From positions 3,922,540 to 3,986,539 of the forward strand of contig NZ_KQ031391.1 of NCBI RefSeq assembly GCF_000966285.1: a DNA stretch of 64,000 nucleotides. Reading direction: 5' to 3'. Origin of the DNA: Pseudofrankia sp. DC12 (GTDB lineage: Bacteria > Actinomycetota > Actinomycetes > Frankiales > Frankiaceae). Below, piece after piece: positions 8,012 to 57,699 of the stretch. Each line of letters starts with the position of its first letter. Within the stretch, counting starts at the first letter, position 1. The notes under the pieces are model-generated. The model saw only the letters and a program-made list of their open reading frames with translations, ran no database searches and was not told where the DNA came from. The position numbers were made by a program, and so were the translations under genes.

Positions 8012-8234
8012 TATCTGGAACCTAGCTCACACGCCGTGACGACAGCTGGGGTGCCCGGCGCCGTGAGGCCGTTCCAGGTGTGGGCCGACAGGGCCGACAG
8101 CCGCCGGAAACCCGCGAACGCCTACCCGCTCCGGCGCCCGGGAACTCGCCTGGCCCGATTGGCCGGTTACAATTCTCCGGGCCGAAGTGGCAAAGGAAAC
8201 AGGGAAGGCGTATTTTACTGTCCGGGGAGTCGTA

Positions 8235-10634
8235 TTGTCAAACGAAGAAGTGGAGCGCGAGCAGGAGTATGTCTCGATGCTCTACGAGCGTCTTGACGGC
8301 TTCCGGGAACAGGCGGCCACCCGGCTCGCCGAGGTGCTCGCCGAGCGGCCGGGTGGCCGGCCGCAGGCGCACACCGAGCGGCAGGCGGCGGCCTCCACCT
8401 ACTCGCGCCAGCTTGCCCGGTATGACGCCGCCGAGGACGGGCTGTGTTTCGGCCGGCTCGACCTCCTCGACGACGAGACCCGCTACGTCGGTCGCCTCGG
8501 CATCTTCGACGAGTCGGGCGACTATGCCCCGCTGCTGATCGACTGGCGGGCCCCGGCCTCCCGGCCGTTCTACCTCGCGACGGCGGCCTCTCCCGAGGGT
8601 GTCCGCCGTCGCCGCCAGATCCGGACGGCGCGCCGGCGAGTCGTCGGGATAGACGACGAGGTGCTCGATCTGGCGGGCGCCGACGCTGAGACCGGCCATG
8701 AGTCGCTGACCGGCGAAGCTCGGCTGATGGCGGCGCTCACCGCGGGCCGGACCGGCCGAATGGGCGACATCGTCGAGACGATCCAGGCCGAACAGGACCG
8801 CATCATCCGGGCCGAGAACGCCGGGGTCCTTGTCGTCCAGGGCGGCCCGGGTACTGGGAAGACGGCCGTCGCGCTGCACCGGGCCGCCTACCTGCTCTAT
8901 ACCTACCGGGAGCAGTTGGCCAAGCGAGGCGTCCTGGTCATCGGCCCGAACCCGACCTTCCTGCGGTACATCTCCCATGTGCTGCCCGCGTTGGGCGAGA
9001 CCAGCGTGGTGCTGTCGACCGTTGGCGACCTTTTCCCCGGCGTCCAGGCCACCCGAACGGAGTCGCGCGAGACGGCTGAGCTCAAGGGCGGCCCACGGAT
9101 GGTCGAGCTGATCGCCGCCGCTGTCCGCGATCGGCAACGGGTCCCCGACGATCCGCCGGAAATCCCCTTCGAGGGCGACACCCTGCTGCTGGACGCGGCC
9201 ACCTGCGAGGCCGCCCGTGACCGCGCCCGCGCGACGCACCGGCCGCACAACCAGGCCCGTTCGGTCTTCGTCCACGCCGTCGTCGACGCGCTGGCCCGGC
9301 AGTACGCCGATCGTCTCGGAGCCGACCCGTACGCCGACGATCCGCTGGGCGAGGACGACGCGCCCGGCAGCGGCAGCAACCTGTTGGGCGCGGAGGTCCT
9401 CGACGACATCCGCCAGGAACTGCTCGGGGACGAGGCCGTGCTCACCGCGCTCGACGAGCTCTGGCCCGTCCTGACGCCGCAGTGGCTGCTCGCCGACCTG
9501 TTCGCCGACGCGGATCTGCTCGCGTCCGCCGCCGAGTCGGCCGAGCTGACCGACGCCGAGCGTGACCTGCTGCCGCGGCCCGACCCGCACGGTGGCCGCG
9601 CGGCGGACCGGATGTGGACCTCGGCCGATGCGCCGTTGCTGGACGAGGCCGCCGAGCTGCTCGGCGACGACGAGGCGGCGGCGCTCGCCGCGGCCGAGCG
9701 CCGCCGCCGCGAGCGGATCGCCTACGCGCAGGGCGTGGTCGACATCCTCACCCGGGATATGGATGACGACCCGGACATCCTCATGGTTTCCGACCTCATC
9801 GACGCCGAGCGGCTCGCCGAGCGGCATGAGGACTCCGACGACCGTTCGACCGCCGAGCGGGCCGCCGCCGACCGGACCTGGGCGTACGGGCACATCATCG
9901 TCGACGAGGCGCAGGAGCTGTCGCATATGGCCTGGCGCATGGTGATGCGTCGGTGCCCGAGCCGTTCGATGACGCTGGTCGGTGACGTCGCCCAGACCGG
10001 TGACCTCGCCGGCGCCTCGTCCTGGGCCCGCGTTCTGGGCCCGCATCTGGGCGACCGCTGGCGGCTCGAGCGCCTGACGGTCAACTACCGGACCCCGGCC
10101 GAGATCATGGCGGTGGCCGCGGGGGTGCTGGCAGCGATCGACCCTGGCCTGGAACCACCTCGTTCCGTCCGGGAGACGGGTACCTCGCCTTGGGAGCTCC
10201 TGGTCGGTTCGGACGCGCTGGCCAGCCAGTTGGCCGTGATCTGCGCCCGTGAGGTCGCCGAGCTGCGTGAAGCCCTCGGTGACGGCCCGGACGGCGGCCG
10301 TGTCGCGGTTCTCGTCCCCTCAGCCCTGCTCGGCGACGTCCGGCCCGTCATCGGGGCGGCCCTCCCCGGCGTCACGACCACCGGCGACGACCCGGACCTC
10401 GAATCGCCCGTCGCGATCCTCACCGTCCGCCAGTCCAAGGGCCTGGAGTTCGACGCCGTCCTCGTCGTCGAACCCGACCGGATCGTCGAGGAGTCTCCGC
10501 GTGGCCTGAACGACCTCTACGTGGCGCTGACCCGGGCCACCCGCTCGCTCGCCGTTCTGCACACCGCTGAGCTCCCCGCCGCCCTCAGGAGGCTGGAACC
10601 CGGCCCCGCGGTGGCCGAGGCCGCCGCGCGCTGA
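8235..10634 (+). CDS. helR: HelD/HelR-type RNA polymerase-recycling ATPase
   Basis: A UvrD-like superfamily 1 protein of 799 residues. The N-terminus EREQEYVSMLYERLDGFREQ is the coiled-coil arm of HelD proteins. Walker A is GGPGTGKT at ~203, the Walker B-like IIVDEAQELSHMAW is at ~554, and the C-terminal motif VRQSKGLEFDAVLVVEPD is at ~728. In actinobacteria HelR/HelD removes stalled or rifamycin-bound RNA polymerase from DNA. TTG 8235 is chosen over GTG 8187 because GGGGAG lies 5 nt upstream and homologues start close to this point. No rifamycin-associated element (GGGGCTTGC dyad) is seen upstream. Confidence 0.85.
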   Translation: MSNEEVEREQEYVSMLYERLDGFREQAATRLAEVLAERPGGRPQAHTERQAAASTYSRQLARYDAAEDGLCFGRLDLLDDETRYVGRLGIFDESGDYAPLLIDWRAPASRPFYLATAASPEGVRRRRQIRTARRRVVGIDDEVLDLAGADAETGHESLTGEARLMAALTAGRTGRMGDIVETIQAEQDRIIRAENAGVLVVQGGPGTGKTAVALHRAAYLLYTYREQLAKRGVLVIGPNPTFLRYISHVLPALGETSVVLSTVGDLFPGVQATRTESRETAELKGGPRMVELIAAAVRDRQRVPDDPPEIPFEGDTLLLDAATCEAARDRARATHRPHNQARSVFVHAVVDALARQYADRLGADPYADDPLGEDDAPGSGSNLLGAEVLDDIRQELLGDEAVLTALDELWPVLTPQWLLADLFADADLLASAAESAELTDAERDLLPRPDPHGGRAADRMWTSADAPLLDEAAELLGDDEAAALAAAERRRRERIAYAQGVVDILTRDMDDDPDILMVSDLIDAERLAERHEDSDDRSTAERAAADRTWAYGHIIVDEAQELSHMAWRMVMRRCPSRSMTLVGDVAQTGDLAGASSWARVLGPHLGDRWRLERLTVNYRTPAEIMAVAAGVLAAIDPGLEPPRSVRETGTSPWELLVGSDALASQLAVICAREVAELREALGDGPDGGRVAVLVPSALLGDVRPVIGAALPGVTTTGDDPDLESPVAILTVRQSKGLEFDAVLVVEPDRIVEESPRGLNDLYVALTRATRSLAVLHTAELPAALRRLEPGPAVAEAAAR

Positions 10635-50583: not shown

Positions 50584-50972
50584 CGTTCCGTGATCGACCA
50601 CTTCAAGCTCTACAACGATCACTTCGGACATGTCGCCGGTGACCGATGCCTGCGGCAGGTCGCCACCTGCCTCGCCGACAACGTCGGCGGGGCTCTCTCC
50701 TCGCCGCGCGCTACGGCGGCGAGGAGCTCACCGTCGTGATGCCCGACACCGACCTGGCCGCCGCCACCCGTCTGGCCCGGCGCCTCTGCCACGCGGTCAA
50801 GGACCTGGCCGAACCGCATCCGCTGACGACCGAGCACGTCGTCACGGTCGGCATCGGCGTGACCGCGGCCCACCCCGCCGCCGAAGCCGCCGGAGAGGCG
50901 GCCGGCGCGAGCCGCCTGGCGGCCTTCGTCAAGTCCGCGGACGTCGCCCTCCACCGGGCGAAGCACTGTTGA
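50584..50972 (+). pseudogene. GGDEF (diguanylate cyclase) domain remnant
   Basis: [20 protein letters not shown] reads in one frame. After a frameshift near 50695 the chain continues as [20 protein letters not shown] and VTVGIGVTAA to the C-terminus KSADVALHRAKHC at 50972. The signature is GGEEL, close to GGEEF. The N-terminal sensory part is missing. A cyclic-di-GMP enzyme once stood here but the frame is broken. Confidence 0.8.
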
Positions 50973-51095: not shown

Positions 51096-52553
51096 TCAGC
51101 GGGCCGGTGCGGAGCTCGCCGAGGACGGTGGTGAATCAGGCCCCGATCCCAGGAGCAGGTAGACGAGTCCGCCGAGGAGACCTCGATCGGGCGGTGCTGA
51201 TGAGGTGGCCTGGGCCGGAGAGGAGCTTGGCGTCGCGGTGGCACTGGGCTCCAGCGACGGCGCCGCGCTGCTCGCCGCCGTCGATGGGAGCGGCGAGGCT
51301 GGGTGGAGCGGGTTGGCGCTGGTCGCTTGCGGTGTTTCGGGGAGAGTGGCGGGTGTCGGTGCCGGGGACATCGACGCGGAGCCTGTGGCGGTGGTCCCGT
51401 GCCGGTGTCCGAGGACGACGAGCAGGGCGCCGACGAGGAGCAGTAGCGTCGCGGCCGCAGTGGCGGCGAGGATCCCGGCCATCACCCGAGGGGCGCGGCT
51501 GGCGGGGACTATACGGCTTGCTGGGGCGGGGATCACGAAGTCCTCGGTGCTGGACTCCTCGACGCCGGCCAGGTGGGGCCCCGGCTCGGGACCGGGTCGC
51601 GCCAGGGTGGTCGCGACGGCTCTCCGGTAGGTGCTGATCTCGGCGGTGATCGTGTCGGGGAGCCAGCCTTCGCCGAGCAGGCCGCGGTAGGCCGTTGGGA
51701 CGGTGGCGCTGTCGACCCGTACCGCAAGCTCCATGGACAGCCTGCGACACAGATCGATGATCTCCGCGCAGCTCGCGCGATGCGCCGGCGTCTTCGCGAG
51801 GCATCGGGTGAGGACCAGCGGCAGCGGCCACGGGACCGGCTGCCAGTCGGGCTCGCCGTACTCGATGCGGTGAAACACGGTGCCGTCGCCGCCGAAAGGA
51901 TAGTCGCCCGTCGCCGCGAAATAGGCGGTGGAGCCGAGGGAGAAGATGTCCGACGCATGGCCGATATGGCCGTTCTCGACCTGCTCCGGCGACATGAACA
52001 CCGGCGTGCCCACCGCCACGCCAGGCCGGCTGAGCTCCCGGCCCGTGCCTTCGACCGCCCGTGCGAGACCGAAGTCGATGACCAACGGTCCCTCGGCTGC
52101 CACCATGACATTGCCCGGTTTGAGATCACGGTGGATCACGCCGGCCTCGTGAATCGACTCGAGTGCCTCCGCGACCCCGGCCAGCAGGCCGAGCACCGCC
52201 CTGGCTGGCAACGGGCCAGCGTGGCGGACCGCTGCCGAGAGGTTCGGCGCGGGTATGTATGACGTGGCGACCCACGGCCGGGCGGCATCGGGATTGGCAT
52301 CGACCACCGGAACGGTGTACGCGCCCTGCACCCGCCGCGCGATGGTGATCTCAGCGGCGAACCGGCGACGGAAATCGGCATGGTCGATGAACTCGGGCCG
52401 TATCAGCTTCAGCGCGATCGGTCGTCCAGCCCGGCTGGTCGCGAGGAACACCGTGCCCATGCCGCCCTCGCCGATCCGAGCGCGCAGCTGATAGCCACCC
52501 ACCACGCGCGGGTCGGCATCCTGCAGGGGCAGAAAGGGACGCTCGTCTGCCAC
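51096..52553 (-). CDS. Membrane Ser/Thr protein kinase (PknB-like)
   Basis: A protein of 485 residues. The kinase domain spans ~20-280: IGEGGMGTVFLA (P-loop), ALKLI (Lys), HRDLKPGNVMV (catalytic loop), DFGLA, and GTPVFMSPEQ. One membrane helix lies at ~357-381 (VMAGILAATAAATLLLLVGA). The outside part is a Ser/Pro/Ala-rich tail of ~100 residues with no PASTA or other sensor domain. The GTG start is 52553. It is a single gene between pseudogenes and appears intact. Confidence 0.87.
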   Translation of the reverse strand: MADERPFLPLQDADPRVVGGYQLRARIGEGGMGTVFLATSRAGRPIALKLIRPEFIDHADFRRRFAAEITIARRVQGAYTVPVVDANPDAARPWVATSYIPAPNLSAAVRHAGPLPARAVLGLLAGVAEALESIHEAGVIHRDLKPGNVMVAAEGPLVIDFGLARAVEGTGRELSRPGVAVGTPVFMSPEQVENGHIGHASDIFSLGSTAYFAATGDYPFGGDGTVFHRIEYGEPDWQPVPWPLPLVLTRCLAKTPAHRASCAEIIDLCRRLSMELAVRVDSATVPTAYRGLLGEGWLPDTITAEISTYRRAVATTLARPGPEPGPHLAGVEESSTEDFVIPAPASRIVPASRAPRVMAGILAATAAATLLLLVGALLVVLGHRHGTTATGSASMSPAPTPATLPETPQATSANPLHPASPLPSTAASSAAPSLEPSATATPSSSPAQATSSAPPDRGLLGGLVYLLLGSGPDSPPSSASSAPAR

Positions 52554-52951: not shown

Positions 52952-53340
52952 GTGAGCCTGTCGGACAGCGAGCACGAGGCGGTCGAGCCTTCCCAGGTGG
53001 ACGGGCTGGACGGCGCGGTCATCCCGCGGAGGGCGCGACCGACCGAGCTGCACACGGGACCGGCCCCACTCGGCGCGGATGTACGACTACTACCCGGGCG
53101 GTGAGACGAACTATCCGGCGGACCGCGAGGCCGCCGAGCAGGTTCTGGCGACGTTCCCGAGCGCGGGGATCACCGCTCGGCAGAACCGGGCGTTCCTGGG
53201 CCGCGCGACTCGCTATCTGGCGGAGGCCGGCATCGGGCAGTTTCTCGACGTCGGGGCCGGTATCCCCACCTCGCCGAACCTGCATGAGGTCGCGCAGGCG
53301 GCCACGCCGAGCGCCCGTGTGATCTATGTCGACAACGACT
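52952..53340 (+). pseudogene. SAM-dependent methyltransferase (Methyltransf_19 type), frameshifted and truncated
   Basis: GTG 52952 begins LSDSEHEAVEPSQVDGLDGA and runs to TELHTG. An extra G near 53057 then shifts the frame, after which RPHSARMYDYYPGGETNYPA, TARQNRAFLGRATRYLAEAG and FLDVGAGIPTSPNLHEVAQ follow. The chain stops abruptly at VIYVDND (53340), where normal members continue for ~150 residues. Both defects together mean no active enzyme. This family is highly multiplied in actinomycetes. Confidence 0.82.
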
Positions 53341-53461: not shown

Positions 53462-53490
53462 GCCCGCTTGCTATAGCAAGCGGGCTTTTT
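53462..53490 (+). terminator. Intrinsic terminator
   Basis: GCCCGCTTGC (53462-53471) pairs perfectly with GCAAGCGGGC (53476-53485) over TATA and is followed by TTTTT. It is plus-oriented, but no intact plus-strand gene lies upstream. It overlaps the end of the HTH gene on the other strand. This kind of terminator often follows a tRNA or an element end. Confidence 0.85.
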
Positions 53491-53695
53491 CGGGTCGGTG
53501 CTGTCTAGGGGGCGTCGTCTGGCTTGGGTTGGGTGGCCGTCCGCCGTGGCCGGGTCTGGAGCGCATCCACGCCTCGAACGTCGACAGACGCCAGCGCGGC
53601 CGGTCGGGTACCGGCTCGTCGTCGGGCGGGGGTAGCCGGCCCTGGTGCCGGTAGGACCGGAGCGTGACGGGCTTGATGCCCGCGCGCTCGGCCAT
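53471..53695 (-). CDS. Excisionase-like / AlpA-type helix-turn-helix protein
   Basis: A protein of 74 residues. MAERAGIKPVTLRSYRHQGR is a winged-helix HTH of the kind seen in integrative-element excisionases. LPPPDDEPVPDRPRWRLSTF and EAWMRSRPGHGG complete the domain. The stop lies inside the terminator hairpin. Upstream codons in this frame do not continue the family, so the N-terminus may be cut. No integrase, RepSA or other element gene is visible, so it is probably a leftover of an AICE or prophage. Confidence 0.6.
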   Translation of the reverse strand: MAERAGIKPVTLRSYRHQGRLPPPDDEPVPDRPRWRLSTFEAWMRSRPGHGGRPPNPSQTTPPRQHRPEKARLL

Positions 53696-53907: not shown

Positions 53908-54204
53908 CTATCGGAGTGCTGTCGGTGGGCGTTCGACCCCGAACAGTCGAATTTCAGCGTCAGTGGGCGGCCTGGTTGCAGAGAGAAGGTATACTCCGTC
54001 AACAATTTTGCATGGCGACGATCCAAGTGCGAGCGATGCGCCATTCAGCACATTCCCAACACTCAAGCGCTCATCTTCAGGAACCGCCCGGACATCGACA
54101 ATCAAAGGCTCGCTCTTCGCAAGGCCTGTGATGGTCGCGAGAACCTCGCGATGTGTCGCTGCGACGGAGACTTCAGCGACCTCATTCCCGTTCGCCGCCC
54201 TCAC
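53908..54204 (-). CDS. SepF-like protein
   Basis: A protein of 98 residues. The stretch ATITGLAKSEPLIVDVRAVP, then VGNVLNGASLALGSSPCKIV and DGVYLLSAT aligns without gaps to the SepF core (VVLNLxxLD..RRxVDFxxGxxxAxxGxxxKVxxxxFLxxP). SepF polymerises and links FtsZ to the membrane. The N-terminal membrane-binding helix of ordinary SepF is missing. Its GTG start (54204) directly follows the TGA of the upstream membrane-protein gene, so the two are translationally coupled. The DNA is AT-richer than its surroundings. The assignment rests on pattern, not on a database match. Confidence 0.55.
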   Translation of the reverse strand: MRAANGNEVAEVSVAATHREVLATITGLAKSEPLIVDVRAVPEDERLSVGNVLNGASLALGSSPCKIVDGVYLLSATRPPTDAEIRLFGVERPPTALR

Positions 54205-54390
54205 TCACCGAGTTAACGCTGGCAGGCTCGAGGGCCAGGGCCAAGCGCGCAATCTTACGCGGTACCAGCCGGTGAAGAGCAGGGCGACGACCAGCAGGAC
54301 GACCAGGGCCGCCGCGAGGAGCCGGACCACCGTAGGGCGCGCCGGGCGTCCTCCCGATCGGCCGGGAACGGGCCGGGCGATCTCGGACAC
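54205..54390 (-). CDS. Small single-pass membrane protein
   Basis: A protein of 61 residues. A basic N-terminus (EIARPVPGRSGGRPARPT) is followed by one strong membrane helix (VVRLLAAALVVLLVVALLFT) and a short basic/Trp tail. GTG 54390 has GGGAG ~10 nt upstream; TTG 54405 is also open. Its TGA abuts the start of the SepF-like gene, which suggests the two proteins are made in fixed ratio. I do not recognise the family. Confidence 0.5.
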   Translation of the reverse strand: MSEIARPVPGRSGGRPARPTVVRLLAAALVVLLVVALLFTGWYRVRLRAWPWPSSLPALTR

Positions 54391-54513
54391 GAGAGCGGCT
54401 CCCAAGGACGTATAGATTCAGCCTAGAAACCAAATTCTATCGCCGTTGTTGCGTTCTGCGGCAGTGGCGCGTGCCGACGGGCTCGGGACGCGGCCGACAG
54501 TCGAGCGACTCAC

Positions 54514-54861
54514 CCGCCGGACTACTCGTCTGGCTATTGGAACGCCTGGAGCGACAACGGCGGCGACCTCGAGTCCGTCTTCACCAAGGACGACATGCTC
54601 ACCCACGCCACGATCTACTGGGCGAACAACTCCATCGCCACATCGATGCGCTACTACGCCAACGCCAACCGACACCCCTGGACGCCCGCCCACGGCCGCA
54701 CCCCGGCCGTGCAGGCCGTTGGCCTCACCTTCGTCACCTACGAGAACCCACCCGGCATCCATACCGCCGCCGAGCGCGTCCAGGCGTTCACGACCGGCCC
54801 GCAGGCCGACTGGTTCAACCACGCCAACGTCAACGCCCACGACCACGGCGGCCACTTCATC
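54514..54861 (+). pseudogene. Epoxide hydrolase-type alpha/beta hydrolase, C-terminal remnant
   Basis: Reading begins at SGYWNAWSDNGGDLESVFTK and goes on through MLTHATIYWANNSIATSMRY, then YANANRHPW and VGLTFVTYENPPGIHTAAER. It ends with the catalytic-His region NVNAHDHGGHFI, after which the family sequence stops. The N-terminal two thirds, with the oxyanion hole and nucleophile Asp, are absent. Confidence 0.78.
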
Positions 54862-55419: not shown

Positions 55420-56037
55420 ATGAGCCCGACCGCGCTGAAGGCACCCGCGGCAAGCGACACCCGGCAGCGCATCATCGACACGGCGGTCCGCCTGTTCACC
55501 CAGCACAGCTTCGCGGGCACATCGCTGCAGATGATCGCCGACGAGCTGGACGTCACCAAGGCGGCGCTCTACCACCACTTCCACACCCGCGAGGAGCTCC
55601 TCGCAGCGGCAGTCGAGCCGGTGCTCGGGCCGTTGCGGACCATCATCGAGACGGCCGAGGCGCAACGCACTCCCCAAGCCCGCGCGGAACACATGCTCGT
55701 TGGCTACGCCAACCTCGCGGTACGCAACCGTGCCATGCTCTCGGTGTTGGCCGCAGACCCTGGCGTTACCGATCAGATCCTCACCCGGCGTGGACTCGAC
55801 GGCTTGATCGACCGTCAGCTGAATCTTCTCGCCGACGTCGACCGCGGCCCCAGCGGGCGGATCAAGGCGGCCCTCGTGCTGGCCGGAATCCCCGGCGCGG
55901 TCGCGCCGAGACTGATCGACCTCGACGACGATGTCCTACTCCAGCACGTCGTCGAAGCGGGCCGCCGCACGCTGGGACTCCGCACGCCACGGCGGTCCAC
56001 CCGAAGTACGGCACCCCTCGCGACCGATCCTCGATAG
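55420..56037 (+). CDS. TetR-family transcriptional regulator
   Basis: A protein of 205 residues. The HTH is DTRQRIIDTAVRLFTQHSFA, then GTSLQMIADELDVTKAALYH and HFHTREELLAAA. The ligand domain spans ~70-190. GCAAGGAGCGATC precedes ATG 55420. It is followed by the antiporter gene on the opposite strand. Its intact neighbours give no clue to its ligand; the half-sites just upstream suggest it represses itself. Confidence 0.87.
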   Translation: MSPTALKAPAASDTRQRIIDTAVRLFTQHSFAGTSLQMIADELDVTKAALYHHFHTREELLAAAVEPVLGPLRTIIETAEAQRTPQARAEHMLVGYANLAVRNRAMLSVLAADPGVTDQILTRRGLDGLIDRQLNLLADVDRGPSGRIKAALVLAGIPGAVAPRLIDLDDDVLLQHVVEAGRRTLGLRTPRRSTRSTAPLATDPR

Positions 56038-56151: not shown

Positions 56152-57699
56152 CTACTGGTCGCCGAGCGCGGCCTCCTGCCGGTCGAGGTCGTGTTGCAGA
56201 CGGCGGCGGGTCGTGTCGCTGATGAGGTTCTCGTCGTAGAGGCGGCGCAGCTCGGTGCTCTGGACTGCGATCACCTCGTGCCGTAGCCCACGGTAGGCCG
56301 CGTCCACAGTGGGGGTTTCCGGGCCGTCGGTGCTCCGGTCAAGGCGGGCGGCGAGGGCGCGCCGCACGCGGTCGATGGCCGGTTCGGGATGCGTCTCCAG
56401 GCCCGCGAGGCGCTCGACGTGGTCGAGGGCGACCAGGTTGAGCGCGTCGCTGGCCCCGTCCTCCTCGCGCGCTGTGTGCTCCGGCTCCAGAGCGAGCCCC
56501 GAGCGGGCGACCACCGGCGCGAGGGTTAGGCCCTGTCCGACCAGCGTGAGCACGACGACCGCGGTGGTGAGCACGAGCACCAGCGGACGCCCGGCCAGCA
56601 CGCCACTGTTGTTTGTGGTGAGCGGGATGGACAGTGCGGCGGCCAAGGGCATCACACCGCGGGTGCCAGCCCAGGTGACCACTACGGCCATCCGCCACGA
56701 GGGCCTGCCCCGGCTCGGCTTGACCGCGCGGGTCAGCGGCAGCGTCCACACCACCCGCACCGCGAGCAGCACCGCCGCCAAGGCCAGCGCCTGTACCGGC
56801 CACCAGGCGGCGCCGTTCGGCAGGTCGCGCACGAGCGTCGGTAGCTCCAGTCCGACGATGCTGAAGATCACGCTCTCCAGGAGGAATACCAGTACCCCGT
56901 ACACGGCCTGGACCTGCAGCCGGATCCGGGCGTCGCTCGGCCGGTGCCCCCCGCGGCCCAACAGCACACCGGCGACGACGACCGACGTGATACCCGATGT
57001 GTGCGCGGATTCCGCCAGCACGTAGGCCGCGTACGGCGTCACCAGCGCGATCACGGACCCCAACACCGGATCGGTGGTCCGGCGCCGGAGCAGACCAACG
57101 AGGCCCGCCACGGCCGCGCCGATCAGGGTTCCGCCACCACCGAGCAGCAGGAACTCTCCGCCCGCCGCCGGCAGGCTTGCCGAACCGCCGACGGCCACGG
57201 CTATGCCGACCGCGACCTTGAACAGCACCAGCGACGTCGCGTCGTTGAACAGGCTCTCGGCCTGAACCAGGACCTGGACCCGGCCGGGCAGGGCGAGGCG
57301 CCGGCCGAGGGCGGTCACGGCTACCGGGTCGGTGCTCGCCAGTACCGCGCCGAGCACGAACGCCATCGCGGGCGGCAGGCCGGTCACCGCGGCTGCCGCG
57401 AAGCTGACCGCCGCGGCCGAGGCGAAGACGAGGCCGAAGGCGAGAATCGTGACCGGCCGCCAGACCAGTCTCAGGTCGCGCAGCGACAGTTCCTCGGCCG
57501 AGGCGTACAGCAGCGGCGGCAGGACTACCAGCGCGATCGCCTGCGGCGGGATGTGCAGCGTCGGCGTTCCGGGAATCAACGCCACTGCGAGACCGGCCAG
57601 TACCAGAAGCGAGGGCGCCGGTATGCGCCAGCGCCGGGCGAAAGTGGCCACGACGGTGGCCAGAACGACCAGGAGCAGGATGATCCCTACGGCACGCAC
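56152..57699 (-). CDS. Monovalent cation:proton antiporter (CPA1/NhaP-type)
   Basis: A protein of 515 residues. About twelve membrane helices span ~1-400. The ion-site segments are VLASTDPVAVTALGRRLALP and AESLFNDATSLVLFKVAVGI (the ND pair), with TSGITSVVVAGVLLG and VTWAGTRGVMPLAAALSIPL later. A cytosolic tail of ~115 residues follows, typical of Nha1/NhaP proteins. It exchanges Na+ or K+ for H+. The GTG start is 57699. Confidence 0.87.
   Translation of the reverse strand: MRAVGIILLLVVLATVVATFARRWRIPAPSLLVLAGLAVALIPGTPTLHIPPQAIALVVLPPLLYASAEELSLRDLRLVWRPVTILAFGLVFASAAAVSFAAAAVTGLPPAMAFVLGAVLASTDPVAVTALGRRLALPGRVQVLVQAESLFNDATSLVLFKVAVGIAVAVGGSASLPAAGGEFLLLGGGGTLIGAAVAGLVGLLRRRTTDPVLGSVIALVTPYAAYVLAESAHTSGITSVVVAGVLLGRGGHRPSDARIRLQVQAVYGVLVFLLESVIFSIVGLELPTLVRDLPNGAAWWPVQALALAAVLLAVRVVWTLPLTRAVKPSRGRPSWRMAVVVTWAGTRGVMPLAAALSIPLTTNNSGVLAGRPLVLVLTTAVVVLTLVGQGLTLAPVVARSGLALEPEHTAREEDGASDALNLVALDHVERLAGLETHPEPAIDRVRRALAARLDRSTDGPETPTVDAAYRGLRHEVIAVQSTELRRLYDENLISDTTRRRLQHDLDRQEAALGDQ

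Follow-up and report, generated by a model that had tools for sequence, protein, structure and literature searches.

A 98-residue open reading frame (ORF) of Pseudofrankia sp. DC12 codes for a SepF-domain protein that is too divergent to be recognized by Pfam on its own. Taken as a whole, the likely picture is that of a short SepF paralog of the Frankia family, probably a cytoplasmic Z-ring tuner, that is represented here by a fast-diverged copy and is abutted by chance by the stump of another gene. The source genome consists of one contig (C1) of 6.88 Mb, and the window is the complete 64-kb stretch that was analyzed (C1:3922540-3986539). Positions are those of the window, unless they are given with the contig. 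The initial annotation had described two ORFs at this site, and both are present, with the TGA of a membrane-protein ORF directly before the GTG of the SepF-like ORF. The features are:

53908..54204, reverse strand: SepF-like ORF, 98 aa, GTG start, with the SepF core but without an N-terminal amphipathic helix or linker; its elements are (by residue) E11-14, H18-30, E34-37, H43-59, E65-68, E71-74 and H82-88

53989..54009, reverse strand: codons 66-72 of the SepF-like ORF, with Lys66 and Tyr72 aligned with K125 and F131 of Corynebacterium glutamicum SepF

54205..54219, reverse strand: junction, where similarity to a membrane-protein family stops (last aligned base 54220) and the SepF-like ORF starts

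54205..54405, reverse strand: truncated front of a gene for a single-pass membrane protein of ~145 aa; 66 aa when read from a TTG, 61 aa if read from the GTG at 54390

The assignment to SepF is not obtained from the single sequence. The 98-residue protein alone has no match in Pfam or NCBIfam, even at E 10, and no SepF chain was returned when it was compared with the PDB by phmmer. A search of 146 genomes of relatives yielded nine homologues (E 4.8e-11 to 2.4e-4), which are located in nine other genomes, all from the taxonomic family of the window. Weaker matches than 2.4e-4 were left out of this set (72 of the 146 genomes match at E<=1). The nine homologues align with the window protein over the whole length with few gaps and 26-38% identity (alignment A1, which consists of the window protein and these nine). 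A comparison with the SepF profile, proposed in the initial annotation, gave nothing for the window protein, which is the only A1 member without a PF04472 match at E<=10, and gave matches for all nine relatives (best E 6.5e-9, some matches being weak). In a PF04472 scan of whole genomes (E<=0.01), three copies scored above the curated cut-off (G004, G006 and, with frame neighbours, G014) and five others below it; the copy in G027 was not listed.

Profiles built from several sequences lead to SepF. With the A1 profile, SepF chains from Bacillus and Corynebacterium are found in the PDB, the best three at 9.3e-5 to 1.1e-4. A profile of the nine relatives, from which the window protein was excluded, scores this protein at 56.8 bits, compared to 10.4 bits for the best of 2000 shuffled copies. 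A local profile from canonical SepF only is too narrow and does not rank the window protein above shuffled copies. When other paralogs are added to canonical SepF, the window protein scores only 14.1 bits (E 0.017 at Z=10000), and the best of the shuffled copies reaches 7.1 bits. The resemblance to SepF that had been noticed by eye over ~43 gapless residues is real and extends further, the core alignment to canonical SepF covering ~70 columns almost without gaps.

The SepF core fold is also predicted for the window protein by structure modelling, as had been suggested for a check. AlphaFold2, supplied with an alignment of the window protein and eight of its own relatives, returned a model with pLDDT 80.8 and pTM 0.72. 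In a Foldseek search with this model, the first 19 ranks are all taken by SepF or archaeal SepF-like proteins; the best has E 6.9e-5, and three are at E<=0.001. Two of these entries are titled "BCR" (3p04, a C. glutamicum protein) and were counted as SepF since they align with SepF. VIA-align to C. glutamicum SepF (6sat) results in Z 9.2 and 2.5 A over 83 residues, while the best unrelated entry reaches Z 6.8. The core glycines, the SP motif and the predicted fold are kept in the window protein.

The relatives define a family of their own. Among 35 genomes of the taxonomic family, the family profile matches 15 at E<=0.01. Ten matches are strong (E 3.1e-43 to 3.5e-32, window included), and these are the same sequences that built the profile. 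Across the class, 15 of 296 genomes match (A2, E<=1e-6), 12 of them in the taxonomic family of the window. Three of the 12 (G003, G008 and G020) match only via other SepF-like paralogs, and the three matches outside the taxonomic family (all from family f11) coincide with the places of their canonical SepF. PF04472 itself is matched above cut-off in 95 of 97 genomes, including the source genome, whose canonical sepF (L001, at C1:5946900) is about 2 Mb away from the window ORF. In a tree of 40 rows, the SepF-like family of the window forms a clade of its own (support 100/100). The window protein is grouped with the copies from Frankia torreyi, Frankia canadensis, Frankia tisae and Frankia sp. 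AgB32 (98/86) and not with those from its own genus; the long branch makes its exact position uncertain. The relatives are under purifying selection: of 13 listed pairs, 12 have a dN/dS of 0.16-0.52, and the remaining one is saturated. We consider it likely that the ORF is a lineage-specific short SepF paralog which, as far as searched, is confined to the taxonomic family of the window, comprising Frankia and its kin.

All ten members share an anchorless architecture. Their SepF core starts about 10 residues in, without an N-terminal amphipathic helix or linker, and their N-termini are unlike MGLGRRAMVYLGL from the SepF of the source genome. Sequence and length discriminate between the two types of N-terminus, whereas hydrophobic-moment values overlap and do not discriminate. 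The initial annotation was thus correct in stating that the membrane-binding N-terminus of SepF is absent from the 98-residue protein, and it is equally absent from all nine relatives. In C. glutamicum SepF, K125 and F131 are the two residues that were mutated to abolish FtsZ binding (PMC7118173). The nine relatives have R, R, V, R, R, A, M, R and V at the position of K125, and Y, F, Y, Y, Y, L, L, Y and L at that of F131. Because the relatives vary at these positions, binding of FtsZ is not assured.

Other loci of Frankia-family genomes (L111 and L117-L120) also encode short SepF-like paralogs that have no N-terminal helix and represent at least two other groups. These have a common C-terminal tail of the LR.RY type. 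The source genome contains an additional SepF-like paralog (L002, C1:2865257-2868406, about 1460-1760 in the locus), whose match to SepF is limited to positions 3-51 of the 72 in the model. Its C-terminal ELRRRYAD tail, which is like that of L111, lies in another frame, and the copy looks damaged.

The membrane ORF upstream is not a gene in its own right. In 58 searched genomes, six homologues of the 66-residue protein were found (E 1.5e-18 to 3.8e-9). Weaker matches were left out (56 of the 58 genomes match at E<=1), among them L052 (E 0.0021), which has stops in frame. The six homologues (L046-L051) are uninterrupted frames of ~145 aa and are 48-64% identical to the window ORF (tblastn). After the sequence WPWPSSLP (WPWSSSLP in three), they continue with D(R/H)V.YC and end with YxLSGGP. 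In the window, similarity ends at 54220 after WPWPSSLP and is followed by ALTR, so that a stop is reached four codons later. The window ORF is devoid of the C-terminal ~86 residues of its ~145-aa parent. When the whole genome was searched with L047, the stump itself and two chance-level matches were obtained (E 0.12 and 0.31, with in-frame stops), and thus the genome has no other credible copy of the missing ~86 residues. The "membrane protein" of 61 or 66 residues is the truncated front of a ~145-residue gene. From the initial description of a 61-residue membrane gene, the ORF, its hydrophobic segment and the TGA/GTG contact stand, but not its status as a gene. The ~145-aa family (about 1450-1950 in the loci), from Frankia-family genomes, is uncharacterized; it has the motifs WPW[PS]SSLP, PCAM and YxLSGGP, and the two members that were scanned (L047 and L048) are without a Pfam match.

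The chromosomal setting was analyzed with respect to division genes and mobile elements. The neighbours of the two ORFs are:

50736..50972, forward strand: GGDEF-like fragment, 78 aa, covering the C-terminal half of the model only and below the Pfam cut-off

51096-52553: Ser/Thr kinase, whole-looking

53004..53339, forward strand: S-adenosyl methyltransferase remnant (PF04672), front part (114 of 291 residues), 64% identical to its counterpart in Frankia torreyi

53471..53695, reverse strand: possible MerR/HTH fragment (Pfam E 1.1e-4, below cut-off)

54492..54672, forward strand: frameshifted remnant (E 2.9e-6 to 1.1e-4)

55420-56037: TetR, whole-looking

56152-57699, reverse strand: antiporter-like gene

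The longer piece of the frameshifted remnant has 33-37% identity to a segment (residues ~270-314) of proteins of ~384 aa from other genomes; we take the remnant to be epoxide hydrolase-like. The antiporter is presumably of the NhaP type. A second antiporter-like copy is found in the source genome (C1:4622529-4624070; 82% identity to the window copy). For an empty-site comparison, the antiporter relatives in G001 and G002 and this second own copy were inspected, and the run of fragments is absent around them. Only the adjacent TetR-like gene is common to the surroundings of the antiporters (DNA matches of 80-136 bases; a protein match in L134 and L135), and thus no empty site can be defined. 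The region is indeed a lower-GC patch, as initially described: the SepF-like ORF has a GC content of 0.69/0.50/0.56 by codon position, and its third-position value of 0.56 compares to 0.82-0.89 in four host genes. The Pfam scan of 17 window proteins revealed no division gene beside the SepF-like ORF, which is thus not placed in a division gene cluster.

Four other explanations have to be weighed against these data. That the protein is not SepF and owes its likeness to chance in a spurious GC-rich ORF has a negligible probability in our estimate: while the single sequence matches neither Pfam nor a SepF in the PDB, and a profile from canonical SepF only performs no better than with shuffles, the homologues, the score against the left-one-out profile and the fold search contradict it. 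The initial annotation favoured a coupled pair in which the 61-residue membrane protein is the membrane anchor of the SepF-like protein, split off into a partner. The hydrophobic segment and the TGA directly before the GTG, a junction at which translational coupling is possible, are in its favour. However, the membrane ORF represents only the front of a ~145-aa gene, so that the term "coupled gene pair" does not hold, and the same two-gene order, the absence of which had been named as grounds for refutation, was not encountered in any of the relatives examined. The membrane gene is beside none of the nine SepF-like relatives (fetched flanks, at least 1.3 kb on the upstream side), and the SepF-like gene is beside none of the six membrane-gene relatives (fetched flanks, E<=0.01). 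The nine SepF-like relatives have no abutting upstream membrane ORF at all; the maximal 19-residue Kyte-Doolittle averages of their upstream ORFs of at least 40 aa do not exceed 1.13. Since the relatives are anchorless without such an ORF, the lack of an anchor characterizes the family as a whole and is unrelated to the neighbour in the window. The split-anchor pair was rejected on the grounds of the truncation and the lack of pairing in the relatives examined, and we attach almost no probability to it. The two-gene partnership is probably only apparent. The TGA/GTG contact would be the point where two sequences were joined, a chance abutment and not a designed operon, and the preceding "membrane gene" would be the stump of an unrelated gene, the remainder of which is gone.

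The initial annotation also located the genes among element remnants and considered an element-borne division inhibitor. Such an inhibitor, carried by a phage, a plasmid or an integrative element, would poison SepF/FtsZ of the host. Several observations fit: occurrence is patchy (strong matches in 10 of 35 family genomes), third-position GC varies from 0.56 to 0.89 across members, the neighbourhoods of members are mostly unrelated, and a putative IS4/5-family transposase is encoded 1.2 kb from the Frankia torreyi copy. Ten neighbour proteins of the relatives were scanned, and only L090/L094 and L091/L095 are syntenic pairs. The neighbours comprise a HIT protein with a response regulator, a P450 with an alpha/beta hydrolase, a type III polyketide synthase, DUF6204, a 2-hydroxyacid dehydrogenase, a D-Ala-D-Ala ligase, an IS4/5-type transposase and one protein without a match. 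Against an element, the copies in two genomes of the window's own genus (L090 and L094) are at a syntenic site, and the 17 distinct window proteins scanned with Pfam, SepF-like and membrane ORFs included, contain no integrase, transposase or phage protein. The identifiable neighbours in the window are fragments of ordinary-looking chromosomal genes, and the term "element remnants" is not confirmed. Pattern scans of viral_contigs, which reach close relatives only, gave no match, phages contained no homologue, and plasmids returned only one chance-level match (E 0.6, in an ABC-transporter gene). The element-borne origin was rejected on these grounds, and an inhibitor of this kind is very improbable. 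In the window's own genus (G006, L094; syntenic in G004), the SepF-like gene (8226-8501) overlaps the start of an alpha/beta hydrolase gene (8498-9460) by four bases, with a divergent P450 gene alongside.

The most serious competitor concerns the state of the window copy, which may already be non-functional: a degenerating relic, stranded among gene fragments, with a fortuitous GTG start. Its divergence is accelerated and far faster than that of its relatives. Its end branch has 2.03 changes per column, compared to at most 0.41 for other members, and its left-one-out profile score of 56.8 bits compares to 107.7-138.3 bits for the others. It keeps eight of the 15 positions that are invariant in the other members (one relative with an X was left out of the count) and has lost seven. 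Several neighbours are truncated genes, and damage is also apparent in the other SepF-like paralog of the genome. By eye, no clear Shine-Dalgarno sequence precedes the GTG. An overlapping GTG, four bases upstream, opens the frame VSEGGERE-stop. Its similarity to MSEG, with which three relatives start, suggests a frameshift near the start of the ORF. These points are consistent with a relic, but the frame of 98 codons has no internal stop, and core glycines, SP motif and predicted fold are retained. In comparison with every relative, pN (0.41-0.51) is well below pS (0.75-0.85), which, together with the intact frame, argues against a long-standing death; dN/dS of the window copy is not computable because its synonymous sites are saturated. 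We give the relic somewhat less than an even chance. The window copy may be decaying, and we keep both readings: it may be functional and diverging fast, or it may have become a relic recently.

For the family as a whole, a function can be proposed by analogy. What the family keeps is the SepF core, which dimerizes and binds FtsZ in characterized SepF, while the membrane-binding helix and linker are absent. Its members would act in the cytoplasm, where they would pair with SepF cores and/or bind the C-terminal tail of FtsZ. Such binding would tune the assembly of Z-rings, and the family would be comparable in this to the additional SepF-like proteins that Streptomyces has. The family is probably a SepF/FtsZ modulator, and a modulation of division by it is plausible. 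With canonical SepF (PF04472; own copy L001), the window protein has in common the predicted core fold and the order of strands and helices. At the two FtsZ-contact positions of C. glutamicum it has a basic and an aromatic residue, which is not so in all of its relatives. It differs in having 98 aa, compared to about 180, and in the absence of a division gene among its scanned neighbours, in addition to its missing N-terminal region and its divergence from the Pfam model.

On SepF paralogs in Frankia, nothing was found in the literature searched, but SepF2/SepF3 and SflA/SflB from Streptomyces were. We take family f18 to be Streptomyces, based on gene sizes and copy number, and SepF2/SepF3 to be probably SflA/SflB of Streptomyces coelicolor. 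By its title, Zhang et al. 2023 reportedly describes that SflA/SflB prevent ectopic localization of FtsZ and DivIVA. The window family resembles SepF2/SepF3 in that these are additional SepF-domain paralogs beside canonical SepF in a filamentous actinobacterium. It is, however, not orthologous, as it is a separate clade (100/100) apart from the extra copies of f18, and one f18 type keeps an N-terminal helix of the MGSVRKASAWLGL type. The two extra SepF-like proteins of Streptomyces are described as of unknown function (PMC8748795, PMC7968930 and PMC3781837), and one of them, SepF2, is bound by DynB. In C. glutamicum, core-only SepF still affects FtsZ polymerization in vitro, cannot complement and forms foci (PMC7118173). 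This SepF-delta-ML construct is like the window family in consisting of the core only, with no membrane tether. It is a laboratory construct, whereas the window family is a natural core-only paralog with relatives under purifying selection.

It is tempting to extend this, as a speculation that we consider rather unlikely to hold in full. Natural core-only SepF paralogs of several types, all without an anchor (the window family, L111/L002 and L117-L120), might compete with membrane-tethered SepF for FtsZ or for dimer partners. Frankia-family bacteria would then have their own means to antagonize or tune septation in filaments and in sporangia, with the window copy as a rapidly diverging member. 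The false lead of a split membrane anchor is removed and is replaced by a more general one, lineage-restricted anchorless SepF cores in the Frankia family. These natural core-only proteins are ready-made counterparts to the laboratory SepF-delta-ML construct, and they could show how filamentous actinobacteria tune septum placement.
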